Source: Alteromonas abrolhosensis (GTDB taxonomy: Bacteria > Pseudomonadota > Gammaproteobacteria > Enterobacterales > Alteromonadaceae). Taken from it: a DNA stretch of 64,000 nucleotides. This document shows, in pieces, positions 5,908-18,443 of the stretch. The notes beneath the pieces are model-generated. The model saw only the letters and a list, made by a program, of their open reading frames with translations, had not been told where the DNA came from and searched no databases. A program made the translations under genes and the position numbers. The stretch lies in assembly GCF_001953635.1 (NCBI RefSeq), contig NZ_MEJH01000002.1, forward strand, positions 124,001 through 188,000, read 5' to 3'. Each line of letters begins with the position of its first letter. Positions within the stretch are counted from its first letter, which is position 1.

Positions 5908-7497
5908 TCAAGTGACCATGTTAAAGCGCTGACCTTTACTCAGGCTACCAACACTCCCTTCATCTAGTGATAGTATTGATGACACATTCAACGCGCTTGG
6001 CGTAACGTGAGAAGCAACAAGGATGAGGTGGTTGGCAGCGTAGCGATTTAATACCTCACACACTTTATGTTGAGTAGTTACATCCAAGCCCTCGAAGGGT
6101 TCATCAACAAGCAACACATTGGCGTGAGATAGAATAGCGCGCGCTAACGCAAGCCGTTTACGCTCCCCACCAGAAAGCGCCCTTCCCGCCTTGCCAACCC
6201 AAATCGACAGTGGCATCAGTGCCTCTAGCCCTAATTGAGCCAACAGATTACTCATGTCATCAAGGGGAATACCCACTCCGGCAGGGTCTAAATTTGAAGA
6301 GACACTGCCAGAAAGTACTATTGGCTCTTGTTCCACATAGCGCCAGTTTGTAATTAAGCCATCGGGTATACGCATGCCATCCACCTCTTTAATGCCTGTA
6401 GATGGCAGCACTCCAGCAATTGACTGAAGCAAGGATGACTTACCACAGCCTGAGGGCCCAGATACAGATACGATCCCTGAGGCTGGAAATGTTGCGCTCA
6501 CCAAGGGTAGACGCCTGTTTTTAGTTGCAAAATCAAACAATGTAAGTGAATGCTGCAGTTCGGTATTTTCGATTACCTGAATGGGTGTGGTTTTGAGCTT
6601 TTTAAGGGCCTTCACGCTTTGTTTGTGCTGTGCAAACTTGGAGATACTGTGAAACGCCGCGCCAGCCCAATCAGGGGCAGCCAGAAGTATCATAGGTACT
6701 ACAATAGCGATGGGCATATACGACATCTCAGATGGCGAGCTTAATACGCCCGACATGACTAATACAACGGTAGAAAATGCAGCCCCCTGAAACCACCAAT
6801 TCGCGCGTTGCGCTTTGTCTTTCTGCGCAGTTTGTTGTTGCCAAACACTATGAGCACTCGGAGCGCTGTTGATCACATGCCTTCCCTCTTCCTTTGGCAT
6901 GTTGTTCATTGCTTTATTTAAGTGCCATATAGCGCTGCAATTAAGAAAGTCGGCCGATTGCTGGCGAAATGCCTTATTTTCTTTCGTTACTCGTTTGGCA
7001 ATATTTAGTGCACCTAAGCCTTGTACCACCACTGCCACTAACCAAATAGCAAAAAGCGTAATTAAAAATGAGGTACCGGGAAGGTCAAACCATACTGCAA
7101 CAACGCAAAGATTTGTGAATATAAATGTAATGTTAGAAAGCGGAGCTATCCATGCAATCCAACGGCTGGCAAGCTCTTCGGTGTGCTGTGCTAACGCTTC
7201 TGTGGTGAAGGCTTTGTCGGTAATTTTACTGTTTTCAAGTTGCCTAAAAACACGTAGTCGCACCCCTGCGATACGCGCAAGTAAATCGTTGTGCCCCACC
7301 CACATACTGGCATACCCAGATGCTATGCGAAGTAGCGCTAGCGCGCGAATGACCACCGCCGGAATAACGTAGTTAAAACCTACAGGTGCAATAGCACTGA
7401 TAGCGATGAACCACGAAGAAATAACGAGAATGGTTATTCCTGCCGCACCGTGTAGAAGAGCAAGCAGTAGCGTGAGATAAGCCGGTTTACTTTTCAT
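5908..7497 (-). CDS. cydC: Thiol-reductant ABC exporter subunit CydC
   Basis: A half-transporter that pairs with CydD to export glutathione/cysteine to the periplasm, needed to assemble cytochrome bd. The N-terminal half has six membrane segments. The ATPase half has Walker A 'GPSGCGKSSL', signature 'LSGGERKRLALARAI', Walker B 'VLLVDEPFEGLD' and switch His in 'LILVASH'. I choose the ATG at 7497 (529 residues) rather than 7524: it has AGGAG upstream and overlaps the cydD stop by 11 bp, the typical coupled arrangement. The gene ends 19 bp from the convergent SP-family transporter gene. It lies at the end of the cyd cluster, which supports the assignment. Confidence 0.9.
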   Translation of the reverse strand: MKSKPAYLTLLLALLHGAAGITILVISSWFIAISAIAPVGFNYVIPAVVIRALALLRIASGYASMWVGHNDLLARIAGVRLRVFRQLENSKITDKAFTTEALAQHTEELASRWIAWIAPLSNITFIFTNLCVVAVWFDLPGTSFLITLFAIWLVAVVVQGLGALNIAKRVTKENKAFRQQSADFLNCSAIWHLNKAMNNMPKEEGRHVINSAPSAHSVWQQQTAQKDKAQRANWWFQGAAFSTVVLVMSGVLSSPSEMSYMPIAIVVPMILLAAPDWAGAAFHSISKFAQHKQSVKALKKLKTTPIQVIENTELQHSLTLFDFATKNRRLPLVSATFPASGIVSVSGPSGCGKSSLLQSIAGVLPSTGIKEVDGMRIPDGLITNWRYVEQEPIVLSGSVSSNLDPAGVGIPLDDMSNLLAQLGLEALMPLSIWVGKAGRALSGGERKRLALARAILSHANVLLVDEPFEGLDVTTQHKVCEVLNRYAANHLILVASHVTPSALNVSSILSLDEGSVGSLSKGQRFNMVT

Positions 7498-9352
7498 CAA
7501 GGCTACGCTCCTTTTGATTGGCATTCGTCTTGAAACTTGTTTCTACAACGCTACTACAACCTTGTTGGTGCCCTTCATGTTTTGCGCCCAGCTTGCTTTT
7601 AAGTCCTGCCTTTGACTTTAAGAGAACGTCTTGTTCAGGCGTGCTTCGCGATACCGTCCAAAAGCGGTTAAACCAGTTTGCAGGGAGGGCTTTGTGAGAA
7701 GCCCAAATCAGTGTTTTATCTTTGCCCAATCGTTCAATTAGCTGTGCCAATCTTGTGTGCTGAGCATCAGGTAAATGGGCCGTGGGTTCATCAAGCAACC
7801 ATATATTGTCTTTGCGCAACAGCGCTCTCGCAAGCGACAGCCTTTGCGCTTCTCCACCTGAAAGCAGCGGATAATCCGTCATTACCGTATCAAGCCCCAA
7901 AGGCAATAACGACAGCCACAAGTCAAGTTCTACTGCTTCTAGCGCTTTCATAAGCGCGTCGTCTGTATAGGTGTCGTTTAAGCACAAATTTTCACGCACG
8001 GTACCTGGCGTGATCACGGGGTGCTGGGTTATCCAAATTACCGGTTCACTGAATGTATGTGTGCTAGGTCTTTGACCACCTAGGGCTTCTAATAACAGTG
8101 TTTTACCCGAACCTGAGCGCCCGCTAATAAGTATTTTGTCGCCCTTTGATACTTCTAGAGATTCAGCGTGCAAATGCACAGACGGCTCATCAACATCCGT
8201 TGTAGCGCAAGAGCTTTGCGAGTGAGTTTGCCCGGCGTTAATGTCATAGACCTTAAGATTGTTAGCCGTTAGCAATACACCGTGTTCTGAAAAATGATAG
8301 TGGGATGTGGCAATGTTAACCGCGTTCACTGCACTACCATCAAGATTTTGCGTGAAGCACGAGAATAACGGCGCGAGTTCAGTTGTGGCTGCTTCTGCTT
8401 GCGCCTTCTGATGGTATACCTGCCCTAACTTTTTCATTTCACTTAGCAGCAAAGGTACGGTCAGCAATATCCATAAGCCTTGCTGGAGCGTTATTTCCGG
8501 CCCAATACTCAATTCTCCTAACAGTGAAAAACCAATAAATACTGCCGTAAGTGCAACCGCGAGTGTTGCGAAGAAGTCGAGCACGCTGTTGGACAAAAAG
8601 GCTACGCTCACTACTTTCATAGTACGCGCATTCAAGTTTTCACTGGCATCTTTTAGCAGGGCAGTTTGCTTTTGATGCGCCTGATAGCTAGTCAGCATAG
8701 GCAATGCAGCTAACCTATCAGTAAATAAACTTCCCAAACGTTCAAGGGCGATAAAGTGCTTTCGATGAAGAGCTGCCGCCCCTTTACCCACAATAATCAT
8801 AAAAAGTGGCACTACTGGCAATGTAAGCAGTAGGCCAATCCCTATAACGGGGTTCACATAAAAGATAACGGCTAAAGCAAATAATGGGACAACAACTGCA
8901 ATCAATTGCTGCACTCGATATTCAAGTGCCCAGTCGGCAAAAGCCTGTAAGTGCTGTAGCCACAACGTTTGCCAATAGTAAACCGAGTGCTGTCGAATAA
9001 GCGCATGTTGACGCTCAATGAATACGTGTTGTAGATGCTGTTCGAGCTTGTTTAACACCTGCATTCTTGCACTACTAGATAAGGCATTGAATGCGCCTTG
9101 TAGCAGCCAGCTAAGCCCCAGAGAAACGGCAAGTCCTGTGACATCACTCGCTGTTGCAGGAGTCTGGTTTACTACCCAGTCATGAGCAATATGTGAAAAA
9201 TAATAGAACCCAATAATCAAAGAAAAAAGCGACAAACACTTAACCATTACTTGGGCCGTAAGAGAGGTACGCAAGCCAAGCGACTGCGCCTTATCTATCT
9301 TATTGGACCACGTGTTGAGCGTTTGCCGGTTGGGAACTTTTTCTTTGATCAC
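7487..9352 (-). CDS. cydD: Thiol-reductant ABC exporter subunit CydD
   Basis: A 621-residue ABC half-transporter, partner of CydC. Six N-terminal membrane segments are followed by an ATPase with Walker A 'SGRSGSGKTLLLEAL', Q-loop region 'VIWITQHP', signature 'LSGGEAQRLSLARAL' and Walker B 'IWLLDEPTAHLPD'. An apparent linker of low conservation (about residues 340-395) precedes the ATPase. The C-terminus has a basic tail beyond the ATPase core. It lies downstream of cydX after a structured 230-bp gap and overlaps cydC. Together the pair exports reduced thiols that permit haem insertion in cytochrome bd (established for E. coli CydDC). Confidence 0.9.
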   Translation of the reverse strand: MIKEKVPNRQTLNTWSNKIDKAQSLGLRTSLTAQVMVKCLSLFSLIIGFYYFSHIAHDWVVNQTPATASDVTGLAVSLGLSWLLQGAFNALSSSARMQVLNKLEQHLQHVFIERQHALIRQHSVYYWQTLWLQHLQAFADWALEYRVQQLIAVVVPLFALAVIFYVNPVIGIGLLLTLPVVPLFMIIVGKGAAALHRKHFIALERLGSLFTDRLAALPMLTSYQAHQKQTALLKDASENLNARTMKVVSVAFLSNSVLDFFATLAVALTAVFIGFSLLGELSIGPEITLQQGLWILLTVPLLLSEMKKLGQVYHQKAQAEAATTELAPLFSCFTQNLDGSAVNAVNIATSHYHFSEHGVLLTANNLKVYDINAGQTHSQSSCATTDVDEPSVHLHAESLEVSKGDKILISGRSGSGKTLLLEALGGQRPSTHTFSEPVIWITQHPVITPGTVRENLCLNDTYTDDALMKALEAVELDLWLSLLPLGLDTVMTDYPLLSGGEAQRLSLARALLRKDNIWLLDEPTAHLPDAQHTRLAQLIERLGKDKTLIWASHKALPANWFNRFWTVSRSTPEQDVLLKSKAGLKSKLGAKHEGHQQGCSSVVETSFKTNANQKERSLDEK

Positions 9353-9582: not shown

Positions 9583-9696
9583 CTACTCTTGGTCTTCGGG
9601 TCTATCCATATTTTCCGTCGACTCCAACCACATGGCGTTGATAATGCCAAAAGAGCACGCCAGTAAAACTCCTAAAATCCAAGCGAAATACCACAT
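9583..9696 (-). CDS. cydX: Cytochrome bd oxidase small subunit CydX (37 residues)
   Basis: A 37-residue single-span membrane protein read directly from the minus strand: it opens MWYFAWILGVLLACSF and continues GIINAMWLEST, then a short acidic tail ending in DQE. This matches the CydX/YbgT pattern: an N-terminal MWYF-W-LG helix and the conserved 'NAMWLE' just after the membrane span. CydX binds CydA and stabilises the haems of cytochrome bd-I. The ATG is preceded by AAGGAGAACGCT and lies 10 bp after the cydB stop, so it is the third gene of the cydABX operon. It is easily missed because of its size. Confidence 0.95.
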   Translation of the reverse strand: MWYFAWILGVLLACSFGIINAMWLESTENMDRPEDQE

Positions 9697-9706
9697 AGCG
9701 TTCTCC

Positions 9707-10843
9707 TTAATATATGGTGTGAGACTGGTCAAGGTCTTCATTTTTAATACGTCCGCGCATTACGTAAAAGCTATAAGCCGTGTAGCTGAGTACAATAGGC
9801 ACAAAGATACAGGCAACGATAAACATTACGTTGAGCGTCATATGGCTAGACGTAGCGTCCCAAACCGTTAAGCTCGCCTCTGGCATAGTGATGCTTGGCA
9901 TTAGAAATGGGAACATTGAAAAGCCTGCCGTTAAAATAACGCCTGCTATAAATAGCGCACTCGATACAAACGCCATACCTGCATTACCCTTCTTAGAGAA
10001 AAGCGCACAGGCCAAACCCGCAATAATGCCCAGCACAGGTGCTGCAATCATAAAGGGGTATTTGCTGTAGTTGCTCATCCAAGCCCCAGCTTCAATGGCA
10101 ACCTCTTTCTTAAGTGGATTTGACGTAGCAATGGTGTCAATTGCCGAGGTAATCACGAAGCCATCTAATCCAAATGCTACCCACAGGCCTGCAAGTACAA
10201 ATAGCGTTACACCAGTCAGGCTTAACACAACCGATACTGCACGTGCGCGAACTTCAATGAAGCCATCGGTTTTCATTTGTAGCCAGGTTGCACCGTGGTT
10301 CAGCAACATAGCCACAGAAAGCAATCCTGCCACCAGCGCAAACGGTGTTAAAAGGCCAAAAAACGAGCCTGTGTAGGTTGATTTAAGCGTGCTATCCATT
10401 TCAAACGGTACGCCCAACAGCAGGTTACCAAACGCCACACCAAAGATAAGGGCTGGGATAATACCGCCAGCAAATAACGCCCAATCCCACGCTTTACGCC
10501 ACTGCGGGTTAGGTAATTTACTGCGGTAATCAAAGCCTATCGGGCGCATCCAAAGGGCAATTAAGGTAAGGGCCAATGCTAGGTAAAACCCAGAAAACGC
10601 GGTGGCGTAAATCATCGGCCACGCAGCGAAAATAGCGCCACCTGCGGTGATAAACCAAACTTGGTTGCCATCCCAATGCGGTCCTACCGTGTTTATCATT
10701 ACACGACGCTCTTTGTCATTTTTACCAATAAGCGTGAGCAGAGCTCCAACGCCCAAATCGAAGCCATCAGTAACCGCGAAGCCAATTAGCAGAACGCCAA
10801 CCAAGCACCACCAAATGACTCTTAGTAGTTCATAATCAATCAT
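9707..10843 (-). CDS. cydB: Cytochrome bd ubiquinol oxidase subunit II
   Basis: A 378-residue integral membrane protein matching CydB in length and sequence: 'LRVIWWCLVGVLLIGFAVTDGFDLGVGALL', 'NTVGPHWDGNQVWFITAGGAIFAAWP', and the C-terminal 'VVLSYTAYSFYVMRGRI'. It forms the cytochrome bd heterodimer with CydA in the inner membrane and helps create the proton-delivery path. Its ATG overlaps the cydA stop (ATGA, 10840-10843), so the two are translationally coupled. CydX follows at once. Confidence 0.96.
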   Translation of the reverse strand: MIDYELLRVIWWCLVGVLLIGFAVTDGFDLGVGALLTLIGKNDKERRVMINTVGPHWDGNQVWFITAGGAIFAAWPMIYATAFSGFYLALALTLIALWMRPIGFDYRSKLPNPQWRKAWDWALFAGGIIPALIFGVAFGNLLLGVPFEMDSTLKSTYTGSFFGLLTPFALVAGLLSVAMLLNHGATWLQMKTDGFIEVRARAVSVVLSLTGVTLFVLAGLWVAFGLDGFVITSAIDTIATSNPLKKEVAIEAGAWMSNYSKYPFMIAAPVLGIIAGLACALFSKKGNAGMAFVSSALFIAGVILTAGFSMFPFLMPSITMPEASLTVWDATSSHMTLNVMFIVACIFVPIVLSYTAYSFYVMRGRIKNEDLDQSHTIY

Positions 10844-12420
10844 GCTTTTGCTCCTTGCTCATCAAGGTCAATAAGATCAAATTCAGTGTCAGGCTGTTTA
10901 TCTGCAGGGGGAACCGGCCCTTTTTTGGCAAACTTCTTCATTAAGTAAAAACCAATAATGAACATGCCGGTGTAGAAGGCGCTGTACGCCACAAGGGTTA
11001 TCACCACATCGCTTACCGCGAGGTTTGAAACAGACGTATGCACCGGAAGTACTTCTGCAATTGACCATGGTTGGCGGCCATATTCAGCGACGAACCAGCC
11101 AGCCTCACAAGCAATCCAAGGAAGCGGCAAGCCATAGAGCGCGCTTTTTAATAGCCAGCGTGGCTTAGTAATTTTGTGCTTAGTGCTGTAGTAAAAGGCA
11201 CACACAAATAGCGCAAGCATGATAAAGCCAGCCGCAACCATCAAACGGAAACTCCAAAACAAAGGAGCAACTGGCGGAATGCTGTAATCTACAGCCTGTT
11301 GGAGTGCGGTATCAGAAGGATTTGAAACGTTCTCAGTAAAAGGCTCTAGCAGCATGGCATAGCCTAAACTATCTTTATTTGCATCGAATGCAGCACGCTG
11401 TTCAGCTGTCGCGGTGCCATTTCTTACATCATCAAGTACTTCATAAGCTTTAATTCCGCTTAAAATACGCTCGCGGTTATCTTCTTTGAGATCCTTAATG
11501 CCTTTCACTTCTTCAGTTAACGAGCGGGTAGCAATTATGCCCATCGCCCATGGAATCTGAAGGGCGTACTCGGTTTCCTGCTTCTCGTCGTTTGGAATAC
11601 CAAACACGGTAAACGGCGCAGGTGCAGGATGGGTTTCGTACTCAGCTTCAACCGCTGCCAGCTTCACTTTTTGTACATCACCAAGTTCGTAACCACTTTC
11701 ATCACCCAGCACAATCACTGAAAGCGTTGAGGCCAAGCCAAAGCTAGCAGCTATGGCGAACGAACGGCGCGCAAAGGCGATGTGCTTGTGATTAAGTAAG
11801 TAATAGCTTGAAATTGCCAACACAAACATTGCGCCGGTAACGTAGCCTGCTGACACTGTGTGAACAAATTTGACCTGTGCTACGGGGTTAAAAATAACCT
11901 CAGCAAAGCTGGTCATTTCCATACGCATGGCTTCAAAATTAAATTCAGCACCTACCGGGTATTGCATCCAGCCGTTGGCAATCAGGATCCACAGTGCAGA
12001 GAAGTTTGAACCAATGGCCACCAGCCAAGTCGCCATAAGATGCTTCACCTTTGACATTTTGTCCCAGCCAAAGAAGAACAACCCCACAAAGGTAGATTCC
12101 AGGAAAAAGGCCATTAGGCCTTCGATGGCAAGTGGCGCGCCGAAGATATCGCCTACGTAGTGAGAATAATACGACCAGTTCATTCCAAACTGGAATTCCA
12201 TGGTTAAGCCTGTGGCTACACCAATGGCAAAGTTAATTCCAAACAGCTTTCCCCAGAACTGGGTCATCTGCTTATAAATTTCTTTACCCGTCATTACGTA
12301 TACCGATTCCATAATGGCAAGTAAGAAACTAAGCCCCAAAGTTAAGGGTACAAATATAAAGTGGAACATTGCAGTTAATGCAAATTGCCACCGCGATAGT
12401 TCTATTAACGTATCGCTCAT
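10840..12420 (-). CDS. cydA: Cytochrome bd ubiquinol oxidase subunit I
   Basis: A 526-residue CydA, the quinol-oxidising and haem-bearing subunit of the high-affinity terminal oxidase that reduces O2 to water. The N-terminal 'SRWQFALTAMFHFIFVPLTLGLS' includes the haem-ligand His (H20). The insert around residues 250-350 ('VFGIPNDEKQETEYALQIPWAMGII...') is the long Q-loop type seen in E. coli bd-I. The signature 'EYGRQPWSIAEVLPV' is intact. The start ATG has AAGGGAGAT upstream. A sigma-54-type promoter (12518-12533) and a perfect inverted repeat (12668-12693) lie in the 327-bp upstream gap, and a divergent enhancer-binding protein is encoded nearby, so expression is probably activator-dependent. 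Confidence 0.97.
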   Translation of the reverse strand: MSDTLIELSRWQFALTAMFHFIFVPLTLGLSFLLAIMESVYVMTGKEIYKQMTQFWGKLFGINFAIGVATGLTMEFQFGMNWSYYSHYVGDIFGAPLAIEGLMAFFLESTFVGLFFFGWDKMSKVKHLMATWLVAIGSNFSALWILIANGWMQYPVGAEFNFEAMRMEMTSFAEVIFNPVAQVKFVHTVSAGYVTGAMFVLAISSYYLLNHKHIAFARRSFAIAASFGLASTLSVIVLGDESGYELGDVQKVKLAAVEAEYETHPAPAPFTVFGIPNDEKQETEYALQIPWAMGIIATRSLTEEVKGIKDLKEDNRERILSGIKAYEVLDDVRNGTATAEQRAAFDANKDSLGYAMLLEPFTENVSNPSDTALQQAVDYSIPPVAPLFWSFRLMVAAGFIMLALFVCAFYYSTKHKITKPRWLLKSALYGLPLPWIACEAGWFVAEYGRQPWSIAEVLPVHTSVSNLAVSDVVITLVAYSAFYTGMFIIGFYLMKKFAKKGPVPPADKQPDTEFDLIDLDEQGAKA

Positions 12421-12517
12421 GGGTTATCTCCCTTGTATTTCGTGTGCGCGTTAAACGCTTAGCAGAAAAAGTGGTTTAAAATTCAGTGATGAACACATGA
12501 ATATGCCGCATGGCAAG

Positions 12518-12533
12518 AGCACGGTTTATGCCA
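12518..12533 (-). promoter_or_regulatory. Sigma-54 (-24/-12) promoter of cydABX
   Basis: Read on the minus strand the element is TGGCAT-AAACC-GTGCT, against the RpoN consensus TGGCAC-N5-TTGCW. The invariant GG and GC are exactly 10 bp apart. Transcription would start near 12507, giving a leader of about 87 nt to the cydA start. A gene for a GAFTGA-containing activator and a perfect inverted repeat upstream support this reading. No tool was used to score it. Confidence 0.7.
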
Positions 12534-12667
12534 TACATCTGTGATTTGGCTGCTTAAGCCCAATTACCGATGAATGGCGGTATTTTCGTACTGTGCGGAT
12601 AAATTATTCCACGACCGGGAGTTTGGCTTATTGATCCAACGCAACAATTAATGGTGAACAGTGCGCC

Positions 12668-12693
12668 ATATTTGTCACTAAAATGACAAATAT
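12668..12693. promoter_or_regulatory. Perfect 10-6-10 inverted repeat upstream of cydA, candidate enhancer
   Basis: ATATTTGTCA (12668-12677), a 6-bp spacer CTAAAA, then TGACAAATAT (12684-12693): a perfect inverted repeat. A further TGACA half-site follows at 12694-12698. It lies about 160 bp upstream of the predicted sigma-54 start, the usual distance for an enhancer. The natural candidate to bind it is the Fis-type helix-turn-helix of the divergent activator at 13485 (inference). Confidence 0.65.
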
Positions 12694-12747
12694 GACACAA
12701 AAGAAAGGTCACGTAGGTGAACATTGAGAGGTAGAGAATAGGGCGCG

Positions 12748-13353
12748 TTAGGGTGTATATGTGATTGTGAATGCACCCCGTAGATCACCCAATTCAAACC
12801 CTGTAGCTTGATCATTGGGATAGTGTTCTAAAATGGCGTGCTTTACTGACGGTGCCACATTGGCTCCGTGGCAGGCCATACATACTTGCCCTTGTTCAAT
12901 CGCCATCATGTACCTAAACTCACCACTTTCGCTATCGTATTGATAAGTTTCAATAGGTCTTTTAGGGGTCAAATTGTCTTGCTTAGCTTTGGTCAGTAAT
13001 TGTGAAAACCACGCTAGCTGCTCACGCTCCCAACGATCTGCCGCATTGTTTGGGTTCCTTACTTTTAGCGCGGTACGCCCGACCTCCCAACCATTTTGAC
13101 TAAGCGCTTGAGCAATAGGAGCCGCTGCCATCTGACATTCGTTAACGCCAGCCTCAAGTCCTCCGGATTGAATTGCTTGCTGTAATCGTGACTTTAGTGC
13201 GCCTCCCAGTGCTTTTGCATGTAATCGCGCTTCTTTAACTTTTTCCTGTACACTATTTTCACTTTGTTGCTCATTAGCAGTTGTAGTGTCTGCCAAGGAA
13301 TGAGCACTACTTGCCAATAGGCTTATCACTACCAGCATTACGCCATTTTTCAT
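12748..13353 (-). CDS. Exported single-haem c-type protein (DUF3365/Tll0287-like)
   Basis: A 201-residue protein with a cleavable signal (MKNGVMLVVISLLASSAHSLAD) and a single CxxCH haem-attachment motif, 'VCMACHGANV', near residue 167. The pattern around it ('YRYMM'-like segment, then CxACHG, 'HYPNDQATGFELGDLRGAFTI') matches the DUF3365/Tll0287-like family of periplasmic haem domains, which often serve as redox or gas-sensing modules. It lies upstream of cydA on the same strand and is divergent from the sigma-54 activator, an arrangement suggesting a role in sensing or supporting bd oxidase. The coding start has an AGGAG-like site. Function beyond haem binding is not known. Confidence 0.8.
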   Translation of the reverse strand: MKNGVMLVVISLLASSAHSLADTTTANEQQSENSVQEKVKEARLHAKALGGALKSRLQQAIQSGGLEAGVNECQMAAAPIAQALSQNGWEVGRTALKVRNPNNAADRWEREQLAWFSQLLTKAKQDNLTPKRPIETYQYDSESGEFRYMMAIEQGQVCMACHGANVAPSVKHAILEHYPNDQATGFELGDLRGAFTITYTP

Positions 13354-13484
13354 TATAAAGCTCTCCTAGGAATTAGATGGACTTCTATTGAAGTGCTGCC
13401 ATTTATCTCAAACAGTGAACAAGCTCTATGCCAATATGATAAATTGCCAGAATTAAATTAGAACAAACTAATATTCAGCCGCCC

Positions 13485-14789
13485 ATGAATATATCCATAG
13501 TACAAGCGATGATAGATGCGATAGATAAACCCGCAATCTTCATTAACCCAAGCTACGTTATTGAGGCTGTCAACCAGCCATACAGAGACACCTACCCTGT
13601 GGATATAAAGCTTGGCTTTAGTACCTGCTATCAAGTCTCTCACCGCAACAACAAGCCTTGCGATAAGTGCGGCGAGCATTGCCCCATGCAAGAGAGTAAA
13701 ACCACGGGGCGAGCTGCTAGCGTAGTGCACGTTCACACTACCAGTGAAGGTCAAAGCTACTGTGACATTCTCATGCGCCCAATCTTCGACGGTAGCGGAG
13801 AGTTATTAGGCTACTTGGAAATACTTGATAAGCTGTCGTTTGCCTCAAACCAACCTTCAATAGGGAAAATGGTGGGTGAGTCAGAAGCATTCAAAGCAAT
13901 GCTTAACAAAATAAATCGCGCTGCTAACTCAGATATCTCAGTGCTTCTGTTTGGGGAAACCGGTACAGGCAAAGAGTTGGTGTCCCAAGCACTCCACTCT
14001 AGTAGCCACCGCGCAAACAAACCGTTTATTGTCATCGAGTGTACCGGCATGTCTGACACCCTACTTGAGAGCGAGCTATTCGGTTATGAAAAAGGTGCGT
14101 TTACTGGCGCAACAACGAACAAGAAAGGACTCATAGAAGCAGCGGAAGGCGGCACATTATTTTTTGATGAAGTGGGTGATATTCCACTTTCAACACAGGT
14201 AAAGCTACTGAGGTTGTTCGAGTCGCAAACTTATCGTCCAGTAGGAAGTGTAGTCTCTAAAAAGGCTAACTTTCGTTTAGTGTGTGCAACACACAAAAAT
14301 CTAAAGCATATGGTGGAAACGGGCGAATTCAGACAGGACCTGTACTACCGCATTGCCGGCTTTCCTATCAATCTGCCTTCTTTAAGACAAAGAAAGTCAG
14401 ATATCGCGCTAATAGCAGCCCACTTTCTAGCAATGTCCAAAGAGAAAAAACGGTTTCATAAAAACGCGCTTGAAAAACTCACTAACTATCAGTTCCCAGG
14501 CAATATTCGCGAACTCAAAAATATTGTAGACCAGGCTATTTTACTGGCTAATGAGACGACTATTTACGAGGCAGACTTGCCCGACCTCGATAACATTAGC
14601 TCTGATGCTATCAATGATACTTCGTCATTCAACGGTAACGTTGTGACCTTAGACGAAATGGAAAGCCAATATTTACGTCAGGTTCACTCTTCTTTTGAAG
14701 GCGATACCCAGCAACTTGCACTAGCGCTGGGAGTGAGTACCCGTACACTTTACAGAAAGCTAAAAAAGGCAGGGATTGGAAGTAATTGA
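13485..14789 (+). CDS. Sigma-54-dependent enhancer-binding regulator with Cys-rich PAS-like sensor domain
   Basis: A 434-residue activator in three parts. Residues 1-120 are PAS-like and carry a cluster C48, H53, C59, C62 and C66 ('[11 protein letters not shown]'), suited to binding a metal, Fe-S centre or haem, or to thiol redox sensing. Residues 125-365 are the AAA+ core with Walker A 'GETGTGKE' (157-164), the sigma-54 contact loop 'GAFTGA' (204-209) and Walker B '[10 protein letters not shown]'. The C-terminus (about 390-434) is a Fis-type helix-turn-helix. There is no receiver domain, so it senses its signal directly. It is divergent from the haem protein and cydABX, whose upstream region has a sigma-54 promoter and an inverted repeat. 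I infer it is the local activator of cytochrome bd. The ribosome site is weak. Confidence 0.9.
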
Positions 14790-14858: not shown

Positions 14859-15269
14859 ATGACTTTAAAGCGCCTACTTACACTAACACTGTGCCTTTGT
14901 ATGCTTTTGCAAAATGCATTAGCACTTGGCCTTGCTGCCCATACTATGCAGCAAGCACGTGGGCTTGTAGGTGAAGATATAGAACTTATCTGTACTGGCA
15001 AAACCATGCGCTACATTTCAGTCAGCGCCACAGAGTTTGAAGGTGAGTTCGTTTTTGTAAGCCCTGAACTACTTAAAGCTCCCGCCGAGCACGTTGACTG
15101 TACCAATGGCACGTTAGCCGACCTACCTCAGGTTGACGAGCCACTACATGCCACATTACCTTTGCTGTCGCTAGTTCGCTATCGTGCTTTAGTGGCGCGT
15201 TTAGCGGCTAAACCCTTTACAGATTTCGCCTACGCGGCGCCGCTAAGCCGCGCCCCACCGCACGCATAA
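14859..15269 (+). CDS. Small exported protein, DUF2946-like, paired with copper-type TonB receptor
   Basis: A 136-residue protein with an N-terminal signal (MTLKRLLTLTLCLCMLLQNALALGLAAH) and a central pair of cysteines ('ELICTGKTMRY' and 'HVDCTNG') about 33 residues apart. This size, signal and CxxG/CxxG-like layout resemble the DUF2946 family, which is often adjacent to copper transport genes. It lies 71 bp upstream of an OprC-like receptor on the same strand. I assign the family with moderate confidence; the molecular role, possibly periplasmic copper handling, is an inference. Confidence 0.6.
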   Translation: MTLKRLLTLTLCLCMLLQNALALGLAAHTMQQARGLVGEDIELICTGKTMRYISVSATEFEGEFVFVSPELLKAPAEHVDCTNGTLADLPQVDEPLHATLPLLSLVRYRALVARLAAKPFTDFAYAAPLSRAPPHA

Positions 15270-15340
15270 CAACCTCCAAAACACACTGAACATGCATGCT
15301 TTAACCATGCACAACACTCGTTTTTTAAAATGGAATTGTT

Positions 15341-17458
15341 ATGAAGCAATCTATCATTGCGCTTGCAGTATTTACTGCGTGCGCACCCGTACACATTTTC
15401 GCAAACACCACCAACTTGGCCGATAACACTTCAACAGAAGTGGTCACCGTTATTGGCACACCGCTTTCCCTTAGCACGCAAAATATCGAACAAGAGTCTG
15501 TTAATGCTACCAGCAATATTGACGCTGACTTCGGCGATCAGCTCGCCACATTACCTGGCGTATCGATATCTCGAAATGGCCCGGTGACAGGGCTTATTCA
15601 GTATCGAGGACTTTATGGTGACAGAGTTGGTGTGAGCATTGACGGCGTCGATATAACTGGTGCCGGGCCAAACGCCATGGACTCGCCCCTTTCTCATGTA
15701 CTGCCAGAACCAGGGCTGACTGCCACCCTTTACCGAGGAATTGTACCTGTAAGTGCAGGTGTGCAAACGTTAGGCGGAAAGCTTCGTATTCACTCTGATG
15801 CCTCAGCACTTTTTGACTTGAATACAGGCTTTAGCGGTAGCGCAAGTGCCAGCGCAATATCTCCGGGAAGCGGACAGCAATATCAGGGCAACGTGTTTTA
15901 TAAAAGTGAGCAAGCTTTTGTTAGCGGCGCCTTCACTCATCAACAGCGTGACGAACGAGAGTCAGCAGATAACAGCGTTATACCGAACAGCCATTACCAT
16001 AGAAATGGCGGTAAGATTAGGGCGGGCTATGAGTGGGGTAACCACCAAGTTGATGTGAGTTATCAGCAACTTAATACTAATGAAAGCGGCACGTCGGCTT
16101 TAGCCATGGACATTGGCTTTATTGATGCCGCTTGGTATCGACTGGGCTATCGCTATAGCGCAAACGATAGCGAGTTCTTTACGTTAAGCTGGTTTGGCAA
16201 CAGCAACCAACATGCCATGGACAATTTCTCACAGCGCATGGTGATGTCTGCCGACATGGCGAGAGAGAATAACGCTGATGCTATTGCTCAAGGTGTAGAT
16301 GCCACCTATGTTGTGCCATTTTATGAAGGTGACCTCAAACTGGGTGCCTATCTGCACCACAGCAGGAACAACTCAACCATCACGAACCCTAATAACGGCA
16401 TGTTCTTCGTTGATAACTTTACCAATGTAGAAAAAGGCACGGCCAGTGTGTTCACCGAATGGCAGCAGGATAAAGCGTCTTTCTCTACAACGATTGGCGT
16501 GCGATATACACGTGTTGACATGGATGCCGGGCTAGCTGGTTCTAACATGGTTATGATGAACCCTGCCATTGCCAAACTCGTTGATGATTTTAACGCCGCA
16601 GAGCGCGATAAAAGCTACAACATGTTGGACGTTGCCGCCAGCACGCGATATCACGCCAGCGACAATGTCGATGTTGTCCTTGGGGTATCGCAGAAAAACC
16701 GTGCCCCTACGTACTTCGAACGCTATACGTGGCTACCTCTTGGCATTTCCGGGGGAATGGCAGACGGGTTTAACTACATTGGTAACCTGGCTTTAGACAA
16801 CGAAACCGCACGCCAGATAGATGTGGGTATTGATTACCGTTTCAAAAGCTGGTCAGTTTCTCCTCGTCTCTTTTATCAAGATATTGAAGACTATATTACT
16901 GGTTCTCCCAGCACGAATATGGCGGCCAATATGGTCTCTACCATGATGGCAGGCACAACTCCATTTCAATGGACTAATACAGACGCCGTAATCAAAGGGG
17001 CAGATCTGACTGTTTCGGGTAACCTGCTTGATAACGTGAGGCTTAACGCAGTAGCAAGTGTTCAGCACGGTAATCGCGACGATATCGACGATGCGTTGTT
17101 TCGTATTGCCCCCGAACAGCTAATCACCACCATTCAGTGGGATACACAGCTACTCAATGCGCCAATGGCGCTGCAACTAACGTCAGAATTGGCAGGAGCA
17201 CAAAACCACGTTTCAGCGCTACAAAGTGAAAACACTACCGCTGGATATGGATTAGTGCACATTACGGGGCTTTTCACCCTTTTAGATAATGCGCAGTCAA
17301 ATCTTCAGATTACGGTCACCATTCATAACCTGTTTGATAAACACTACGCCCCACACACAGCGGGAATTAACCGCGTGAGGAATACTGATGTTGCAGTAGG
17401 TAAGCGAGTACCCGCTGCGGGACGAGAGTGGCATCTATCGCTAAGCTACAGGTTCTAA
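15341..17458 (+). CDS. TonB-dependent outer-membrane receptor, OprC/NosA-like (copper type)
   Basis: A 705-residue receptor: signal peptide (ends near 'VHIFANT'), TonB box-like 'EVVTVIGT', plug domain ('LATLPGVSISRNG', 'YRGLYGDRVGVSIDGVDITG'), then a 22-strand barrel ending in the aromatic 'HLSLSYRF'. It is methionine-rich in predicted loops: 'QHAMDNFSQRMVMS', 'GSNMVMMNPA' and 'NMAANMVSTMM'. In the Pseudomonas copper importer OprC the site is built from CxxxM and HxM. Here 'HAM' and 'NAMDSP' are present, but the Cys appears replaced, so this may be the methionine-only variant. The preceding DUF2946-like gene supports copper. Other metals cannot be excluded. Confidence 0.82.
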   Translation: MKQSIIALAVFTACAPVHIFANTTNLADNTSTEVVTVIGTPLSLSTQNIEQESVNATSNIDADFGDQLATLPGVSISRNGPVTGLIQYRGLYGDRVGVSIDGVDITGAGPNAMDSPLSHVLPEPGLTATLYRGIVPVSAGVQTLGGKLRIHSDASALFDLNTGFSGSASASAISPGSGQQYQGNVFYKSEQAFVSGAFTHQQRDERESADNSVIPNSHYHRNGGKIRAGYEWGNHQVDVSYQQLNTNESGTSALAMDIGFIDAAWYRLGYRYSANDSEFFTLSWFGNSNQHAMDNFSQRMVMSADMARENNADAIAQGVDATYVVPFYEGDLKLGAYLHHSRNNSTITNPNNGMFFVDNFTNVEKGTASVFTEWQQDKASFSTTIGVRYTRVDMDAGLAGSNMVMMNPAIAKLVDDFNAAERDKSYNMLDVAASTRYHASDNVDVVLGVSQKNRAPTYFERYTWLPLGISGGMADGFNYIGNLALDNETARQIDVGIDYRFKSWSVSPRLFYQDIEDYITGSPSTNMAANMVSTMMAGTTPFQWTNTDAVIKGADLTVSGNLLDNVRLNAVASVQHGNRDDIDDALFRIAPEQLITTIQWDTQLLNAPMALQLTSELAGAQNHVSALQSENTTAGYGLVHITGLFTLLDNAQSNLQITVTIHNLFDKHYAPHTAGINRVRNTDVAVGKRVPAAGREWHLSLSYRF

Positions 17459-17660: not shown

Positions 17661-18443
17661 TCAGATTACAGCGGGAAATAAAGCTGAAAATGCCTGCCAC
17701 AAGAGGCGCAGGGCCAACAGTGTCACCACTATCTTGAACGCCAGCATAAACTTTTCAGCTGGGACACGCTTTAATACTTTCAAGCCGATGAATGTGCCGA
17801 GCGCACCGCTGGCAATCATAATAATGATAAGCCCCGCCCACTGGGCAAAGGAAAATCCTACAAAGGTAAAAACAAACGCTTTAAGGCCGTGTTGCAGTGT
17901 CATACAGCTGGCAAACGTGCCGGTTATCTGCATTTTGCTGTAATTATTTCGATGAACAAATGCCGCAACCAAAGGCCCTGTGGCACCTACAAACATTGAT
18001 ACCAACGTGGTCACCACTCCGGCCAACGTTCTACCCGCGGGTTTCATTTCTTGTGCTCTGGGTTTGCTCCCCCACACCAGGAATAAAATAAATGCGGCAA
18101 CCGCAAATTGTATAATAACCAACGGCAACTGAACCACAATAAACGACGCCAAGAACGCGCCAACGATTGCGCCTAAAGAAAAATACTTCAGCATACTCCA
18201 GTCGATATGCTTTGCCGTCATCAGTGCACGATTTCCATTTGAACCAAGCTGAACTAACCCGTGAACTGGAATTAGCGCACTAACCGGCATAATACCGGCC
18301 ATTACTGCCAGTAATAAGACCCCGCCACCAATACCCATCGTTGCTGTCATCATCGACGTAAAGAAGGATGTAACAACAAGTACAACTGATGATGATATCG
18401 ACAGCGCATCATTGGCCGTTAACCAGCTATAAAGTAACTCCAA
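17661..18443 (-). CDS. TSUP (TauE/SafE) family membrane permease
   Basis: A 260-residue protein with about eight hydrophobic segments and the TSUP signature 'TSMMTATMGIGGGVLLLAVMAGIMPVSALIPVHGLVQLGSN', repeated in weaker form in the second half ('SMFVGATGPLVAAFVHRNN'). Members export sulfite, sulfoacetate or other small organic anions, or take up sulfur compounds; the substrate here is unknown. It is a single-gene unit facing the copper-type receptor gene. No regulator or sulfur gene is next to it. The start ATG has only a weak ribosome site. Confidence 0.85.
   Translation of the reverse strand: MELLYSWLTANDALSISSSVVLVVTSFFTSMMTATMGIGGGVLLLAVMAGIMPVSALIPVHGLVQLGSNGNRALMTAKHIDWSMLKYFSLGAIVGAFLASFIVVQLPLVIIQFAVAAFILFLVWGSKPRAQEMKPAGRTLAGVVTTLVSMFVGATGPLVAAFVHRNNYSKMQITGTFASCMTLQHGLKAFVFTFVGFSFAQWAGLIIIMIASGALGTFIGLKVLKRVPAEKFMLAFKIVVTLLALRLLWQAFSALFPAVI

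Follow-up and report, generated by a model that had tools for sequence, protein, structure and literature searches.

The sigma-54 activator FisR, characterised in Cupriavidus pinatubonensis and in Acinetobacter baumannii, activates sqr and pdo, the genes of sulfide:quinone oxidoreductase (SQR) and persulfide dioxygenase (PDO). In FisR, the third Cys of the sensor domain follows the second one with an x6 spacing. The protein relies on three conserved Cys (PMC9774590) and a tetrasulfide is formed between Cys53 and Cys64, that is with an x10 spacing (PMC9495516). Cytochrome bd gives sulfide-resistant respiration (PMC4815019), and sulfide induces cydAB in A. baumannii, Escherichia coli and Mycobacterium tuberculosis (PMC7315123). 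The locus analysed here, located in a stretch of 64,000 nucleotides of Alteromonas abrolhosensis (contig NZ_MEJH01000002.1, positions 124,001 to 188,000; hereafter the window, whose numbering is used for all coordinates), associates a FisR-like sigma-54 activator with the genes of cytochrome bd. The activator gene (13485..14789, plus strand) encodes 434 amino acids with the domains PAS_4, Sigma54_activat and HTH_8. It is divergent from a minus-strand series composed of a Tll0287-like (DUF3365) haem gene, cydA, cydB, a CydX-like peptide and cydD/cydC-like exporters. The original prediction, made from the letters of this DNA, of a sigma-54 activator with a Cys/His sensor divergent from a haem protein and cydABX was thus found correct in all its positions, CydX being presumed. 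From sequence comparisons, we consider it likely that this activator would induce cydAB(X) on sulfane sulfur, through tandem operators and RpoN, for sulfide-resistant respiration.

Regulatory sites upstream of cydA

Two elements had been proposed upstream of cydA, an RpoN -24/-12 element and a perfect 10-6-10 inverted repeat (12668-12693). The first one, TGGCATAAACCGTGCT (12518..12533, minus strand), is present and is kept in most relatives that possess the activator; the transcript of cydA would start near 12507. The repeat is perfect and can be lengthened to 11-6-11 (12667..12694), but it is not the conserved unit, as it consists of the inner half-sites of two operators. What the relatives conserve, according to de novo discovery, are two TGNCA-W4-TGNCA operators in tandem, represented in the window by the distal operator TGTCATATTTGTCA (12684..12697, minus strand; 20.6 bits as the 20-mer 12681-12700) and the proximal operator TGACAAATATGGCG (12664..12677, minus strand; 17.9 bits as the 20-mer 12661-12680). 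Their centres, 20 bp apart, precede the predicted cydA start by about 163 and 183 bp. The inverted repeat itself was rejected as operator: TTTGTCA-N6-TGACAAA is exact in the window only, with at least three mismatches in the relatives. It is imperfect in the loci L033 and L034, yet both operators are kept there, 21 bp apart, and the genome contains no second copy within two mismatches (one with three).

Gapped palindromes were enumerated in 66 promoter regions, and TGTCA-N4-TGACA occurred in 48 of these with at most one mismatch (1.3 expected); in shuffled promoter regions, no word exceeded a count of 12. From 58 sites, an operator matrix was derived that passes the 99% null level in 58 of the 67 regions, these regions being its own training data. 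Applied to 54 distant loci outside the training set, it recovers a site in 25, against 0/54 after shuffling, and a phased pair in 13, and the betaproteobacterial scan was positive for six of seven loci (L233 and L238 being left out). Among 96 regions, 68 display two or more operators, 22 a single one and six none. The spacing in the 68 multi-site regions is 19-22 bp in 55 cases and 30-33 bp in nine, values that would place the operators on one face of the helix. Operators are also found between the activator and the SQR genes, several SQR promoters combining operators with -24 elements that have TTGT at -12; the strict GG-N10-GC rule misses those reading TGGCACG-N4-TTGTT.

Co-occurrence of the sites and of the activator gene

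The family set comprised 196 genomes, in which orthologues of the activator were accepted at E <=3e-117 (the next matches being near 1e-75) and canonical cydA at E <1e-200. A full-length orthologue is present in 47 genomes, canonical cydA in 58 and both in 35. The genus, an automatic genome grouping whose named members are mostly Alteromonas, is represented by 59 genomes with 35 activators and 44 cydA, all 35 activator genomes having cydA. The nearest named relatives also belong to Alteromonas, and the activator of Alteromonas marina is 98% identical over the sensor domain. The scan was limited to 330 bp of intergenic DNA upstream of cydA with a strict -12 rule (L079 and L080 both score at 330 bp). 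Of the shuffled regions, 3.9% passed the RpoN threshold and 0.6% that of the operator. One RpoN match, in genome G068, fell in the terminal coding portion of a TauE gene, and the restriction to intergenic DNA removed it.

Operator and RpoN element occur together upstream of the linked cydA in 52 of the 61 activator loci and in none of the 28 activator-less genomes (Fisher p 1.2e-15, ignoring relatedness). The comparison of genomes with and without the activator gene, suggested in the original prediction, therefore turned out in its favour. In the genus, both sites are found in 33/35 cydA regions with activator, the operator being present in all 35, whereas both sites are found in 0/8 regions without it; no operator was found at cydA in these eight genomes. 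Outside the genus, 19 of 26 linked loci have both sites, against none of 20 activator-less genomes, one of which has the operator only. When activator and cydA are unlinked (four genomes), both sites are still at cydA in two. Taken separately, neither element is conclusive. Two RpoN matches occur in the window for 0.87 expected, which is not significant since 17 of 100 shuffles reach two or more. Perfect 10-bp inverted repeats are common in the window (40 overlapping counts for gaps of 0-20 against 0-3 in ten shuffles; three for a gap of 6 against 0-1), so that a single repeat is weak evidence. Chance was nevertheless rejected as explanation for the two elements, because the comparison (52/61 versus 0/28) lifts both above it.

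The tree of the cydA sequences of the genus requires at least three changes in the presence of the activator, and the activator-less genomes are placed at three positions. We read these states as losses, a direction that the tree does not fix. In G236, only a remnant of the activator subsists (L126:5459-5683) and both types of sites are retained, its sister in the tree (L151) having the full gene. This genome is below the activator threshold and was counted apart, and L157 was counted as activator-positive although the sequence analysed ends within its gene. In L125 and L128, the neighbouring genes of a TonB receptor and a small protein remain, while the haem gene, the activator and both types of sites have disappeared. 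As the sites track the activator gene and the tree shows at least three changes, conservation strongly supports a local RpoN control of cytochrome bd by the neighbouring activator, as originally proposed. A second kind of sigma-54 regulator was observed beside cyd in G067 (L083:731-3204), where cydA is immediately preceded by the genes of a histidine kinase and an NtrC-type response regulator; an RpoN-like site is present there, the operator is not.

The sensor domain

The activator displays a sigma-54 AAA+ domain (PF00158, 220.7 bits) with the GAFTGA motif, a Fis-type HTH (PF02954, 27.2 bits) and a PAS-type sensor covering residues ~1-116. The AlphaFold model of the sensor is PAS-like (pLDDT 89.1; 88.9 for the full protein). 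Its best Foldseek matches are PAS and LOV structures, and flavin, haem and other PAS structures are among the matches. In this predicted structure, the three sensor Cys sit in a helical segment between strands 2 and 3. The motif C48-x4-H53-x5-C59-x2-C62-x3-C66, proposed to sense oxygen, NO or redox state, exists as such in the window. The alignment reveals that C48, H53, C59 and C66 are invariant in the 47 family orthologues, but position 62 is a Cys in only eight of them; the conserved triad is thus C48-x10-C59-x6-C66.

Class- and phylum-wide searches at 1e-85 gave a match to the activator in 61/369 and 31/398 genomes, respectively. From the matches listed, 54 new loci were retained, of which 53 contain C-x3-SH-x5-C-x6-C (L267 is without the SH form). 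The homologue of Cupriavidus metallidurans CH34 is 47% identical over residues 15-431, its Cys motif reads CYRVSHGYDVPCDQAGEHC (by eye from the translation), and its gene is divergent from PDO-like and SQR-like genes (pdo-sqr locus), an arrangement like that of FisR. The betaproteobacterial homologues L230-L238, several of them from named sulfur oxidisers, all have C-x10-C-x6-C; their neighbours are other genes, including those of a TrpD-like and a Rieske-like protein (by eye), and the L234 homologue adjoins cydA and cydB fragments. Judged by its sequence, the activator would belong with the FisR-like regulators of reactive sulfur. Both the triad C-x10-C-x6-C and the neighbourhoods with sqr, pdo or tauE described below favour reactive or sulfane sulfur derived from sulfide as the likely signal, and make the sensing of oxygen or NO less likely.

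Genes in the vicinity of the activator

Among the 47 family loci, canonical cydA belongs to the divergent block in 31 (26 outside the genus and five inside). A CIO-type bd oxidase occupies the divergent block in L049 and L076 and is on the other side of the activator in L056; CIO-type genes replace canonical cydAB near the activator in L049, L056, L076, L201 and L212. SQR faces the activator in 19/47 loci (identified by its N-terminal motif) and a PDO gene, also identified by motif, is in the block of five, TauE being present in some. No SQR, PDO, cydA or Tll0287-like (TLL) gene was found in the block of three loci (L044, L055 and L056). Among the class and phylum loci from the matches listed, 24 of 54 have SQR, PDO, cydA, TLL or TauE within 1.5 kb.

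The neighbours of L041, analysed with Pfam and NCBIfam, are a Pyr_redox_2 protein with a weak match to the SQR model, a Blh-like PDO (394.6 bits, under the 625 cut-off of the bifunctional protein) and TauE/SafE. This SQR, the only one so compared, matches the sulfide-quinone reductase structure 3sz0 at 1e-158, and we take SQR of this kind to be type I. Type I SQR is present in 12 of the 59 genus genomes, 11 times at the activator locus. On the other side of the activator, an MMPL-type transporter, a LolA-like protein and an unknown protein are encoded in L037, L039, L041, L044, L050, L052, L054 and L055, an assignment made with Pfam for L041 and by similar size and sequence for the other loci.

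The FNR-like box and the haem protein

An FNR-like box, TTGCGTTGGATCAA (12631..12644, minus strand), shows two mismatches to TTGATNNNNATCAA. The sequence TTGCGNTRGATCAA is aligned in the window, in close relatives and in activator-less species; it is exact in 24/44 genus loci (5/8 activator-less), and TTG-N6-ATCAA is found upstream of cydA in 38/44 (8/8 activator-less). As this box persists in most loci of the genus, it probably adds a low-oxygen control, and the textbook control may coexist with the sigma-54 circuit. The suggestion that this locus departs from the ArcA/FNR scheme is therefore supported for the local sigma-54 control, but the FNR scheme has probably not been replaced.

The haem gene (12748..13353, minus strand) encodes a putative stand-alone c-type protein (PF11845, 87.4 bits, cut-off 24.1) with the haem motif CMACH. 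The only PDB sequence match at the threshold used is 5b82. CxxCH is present in the 32 recognised genus copies, and a conserved Cys upstream of it could be an axial ligand. A tested stand-alone Tll0287 protein binds neither O2 nor NO strongly, with weak nitrosyl forms, and electron transfer or redox sensing has been proposed for it (PMC12889525). These properties do not favour a gas signal shared with the activator, contrary to the idea that the DUF3365 protein feeds the same signal. The TLL gene occurs in 21 of the 47 family activator blocks. Such a recurrent position near SQR and cydA suggests that the haem protein takes a redox part in the handling of sulfide.

Proposed regulation and alternative explanations

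In the proposed mechanism, the activator would bind the two helically phased TGNCA-W4-TGNCA operators upstream of cydA. Sulfane sulfur (polysulfide, persulfide) derived from sulfide would modify C48, C59 and C66 of the PAS domain, and the modified activator would remodel the RpoN-holoenzyme at the -24/-12 element, leading to the induction of cydAB(X). The sulfide-resistant quinol oxidase would then take over once the haem-copper oxidases are inhibited. Many relatives have sqr, and some of them pdo and tauE, facing the activator as well. The lineage of the window has no sqr at this place, and no paired-operator target other than cytochrome bd was seen there. We infer the DNA binding, the sulfur signal and the physiological role from these comparisons.

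An activator that controls cydAB by the same operators and RpoN, and senses NO, oxygen or general thiol oxidation, is in our opinion unlikely. Cytochrome bd is known to serve also under NO and low oxygen, the PAS folds matched by the sensor hold ligands as diverse as flavin and haem, and the window genome is without type I SQR and the PDO searched. On the other hand, the invariant triad fits the spacing of the FisR Cys pair, C62 of the proposed cluster is rarely a Cys, the neighbours in the relatives are sulfide genes and no NO genes were recognised beside the activator in a non-exhaustive scan of the neighbours. The identification with NorR was rejected, the model giving 274.9 bits for a cut-off of 476 and the sensor being PAS_4, with no GAF domain. 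A reading in which another enhancer-binding protein, or one of the CRP/FNR family, acts at the operators and the RpoN element while the activator gene hitch-hikes beside them is very unlikely. TGTCA half-sites do resemble some CRP-family sites, and in G067 the NtrC-type system precedes a cydA that has an RpoN-like site and lacks the operator. Against this reading, the operator at cydA is absent from the eight activator-less genus genomes, distributed over three places of the tree, and present in 1/20 of those elsewhere, while operators are also located between activator and SQR genes and beside distant homologues. The least probable explanation considers the sites as relics, with FNR/ArcA running cydAB and the activator mainly serving the haem protein or the TonB receptor. 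The FNR-like TTG-N6-ATCAA, retained in all activator-less genus loci, and the tolerated recent loss of the activator in G236 would agree with it; the conservation of operators and RpoN element in 33/35 genus loci with activator would not, and in the window, no RpoN match and nothing better than an 11-bit operator site lie between the activator and the haem gene.

Several observations weigh against the induction of cydAB by sulfane sulfur through this activator. The window genome has no type I SQR match (in a search that did not extend to type II SQR or to further sulfur enzymes) and no full-length PDO of the searched kind, with a single match of 34% over 156 residues, so the usual sulfide-oxidising partners are missing; by the same absence, cytochrome bd looks like the main remaining target of the activator. 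Canonical cydA is lacking in 12 of the 47 family genomes with activator. At nine of the 61 linked loci, at least one of the two sites is missing, in part through the strict -12 rule and the 330-bp limit (in L062, L064, L071, L073 and L074, the operator is beyond 330 bp or upstream of the haem gene), and the unlinked cydA of L104 and L105 have neither site. With 62-71% identity, the cydA of the 20 activator-less family genomes are more remote, which leaves the eight genus genomes as the only close comparison. In the window genome, an exact-pattern scan, which off-pattern sites would escape, gave 16 operator matches, only mildly above the 10 of the reversed control. Among the 15 inspected, the pair with RpoN element is at cydA only, and weak RpoN-like matches accompany the single sites L107 and L114. 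Finally, in A. baumannii, where cydAB is induced by sulfide and FisR is the main sulfide activator, as would be the case for the FisR-like protein in the circuit proposed here, cydAB is at an unlinked locus and its dependence on FisR is not stated in the available sections of PMC7315123.

Organization of the locus

Profile searches place the products of cydA (10840..12420, minus strand) and cydB (9707..10843, minus strand) in the CydA and CydB families, with 581 bits for PF01654 and 526 bits for TIGR00203 (cut-off 117), respectively; CydA also scores 828 bits with NF011677, under its cut-off of 968. The following open reading frame (9583..9741, minus strand) contains a peptide beginning with MWYFAWILGVLLACSFGIINAMWLE, which we take to be CydX and whose true start is probably 9696. 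The cydD-like (7487..9352, minus strand; TIGR02857 308.6 bits, cut-off 435) and cydC-like (5908..7524, minus strand; scores under the cut-offs) genes encode ABC exporters. Downstream of the activator (14859-17458), a small protein of 136 amino acids without Pfam domain and a TonB-dependent receptor are encoded and kept in many genus loci. For the receptor, the resemblance to the copper-receptor model TIGR01778 is distant (139.9 bits, cut-off 472), and a candidate copper receptor is induced by sulfide in A. baumannii, so a link of this neighbour to sulfide is possible. A TauE/SafE-like gene is located at 17661-18443. Its homologue is directly upstream of cydA in four activator-less genomes (L081 and L122-L124), and the activator cassette of the window therefore stands between these two genes.

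Comparison with known systems

The activator resembles FisR by its C-x10-C sensor, AAA+ domain and Fis-type HTH, by the divergent gene order and by the sigma-54 promoter, a likeness established from the descriptions of the two characterised proteins, the sequence alignment being with the C. metallidurans homologue. It differs by its target, since the neighbours are cydAB and a Tll0287-like gene, with no sqr or pdo at the locus; the divergent operon without sqr/pdo points to a FisR-like protein in a variant circuit, and not to the FisR circuit itself. CydE (GbsR type, PMC6096048) and CioR (MarR type, PMC11837568) are likewise dedicated local regulators of bd oxidases connected with sulfide resistance, but they are not sigma-54 activators and the MarR-type CioR is described as a repressor. 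The haem protein shares PF11845, CxxCH and the stand-alone architecture with Tll0287 and the stand-alone haem-Cache domains (PMC12889525, PDB 5b82), and differs from them by its position within a sulfide/bd gene block. The cydA2B2 genes of Cupriavidus necator were considered as a precedent and rejected: growth rate under CO did not change significantly with the rpoN mutations reported for that organism in PMC10164946.

Among the matches listed from open-licence PMC papers, none described a direct circuit of this type, leading from a sigma-54 sensor to an oxidase. The chances appear about even that a reactive-sulfur sensor governing sulfide oxidation elsewhere has turned, in a lineage whose locus lacks sqr, into a single-promoter switch dedicated to the sulfide-resistant cytochrome bd and acting by tandem phased operators, that it was repeatedly wired to bd-type oxidases (canonical and CIO) across Proteobacteria, and that sulfide directly commands the choice of the terminal oxidase. 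The joint loss of the gene and of the sites would designate a specific operator and promoter, and predicts targets of FisR-like proteins across Proteobacteria. Compared with the known systems, in which sulfide-resistant bd respiration and sulfide-induced cydAB are already described, the new element would be this direct connection from a sigma-54 sensor to the oxidase.

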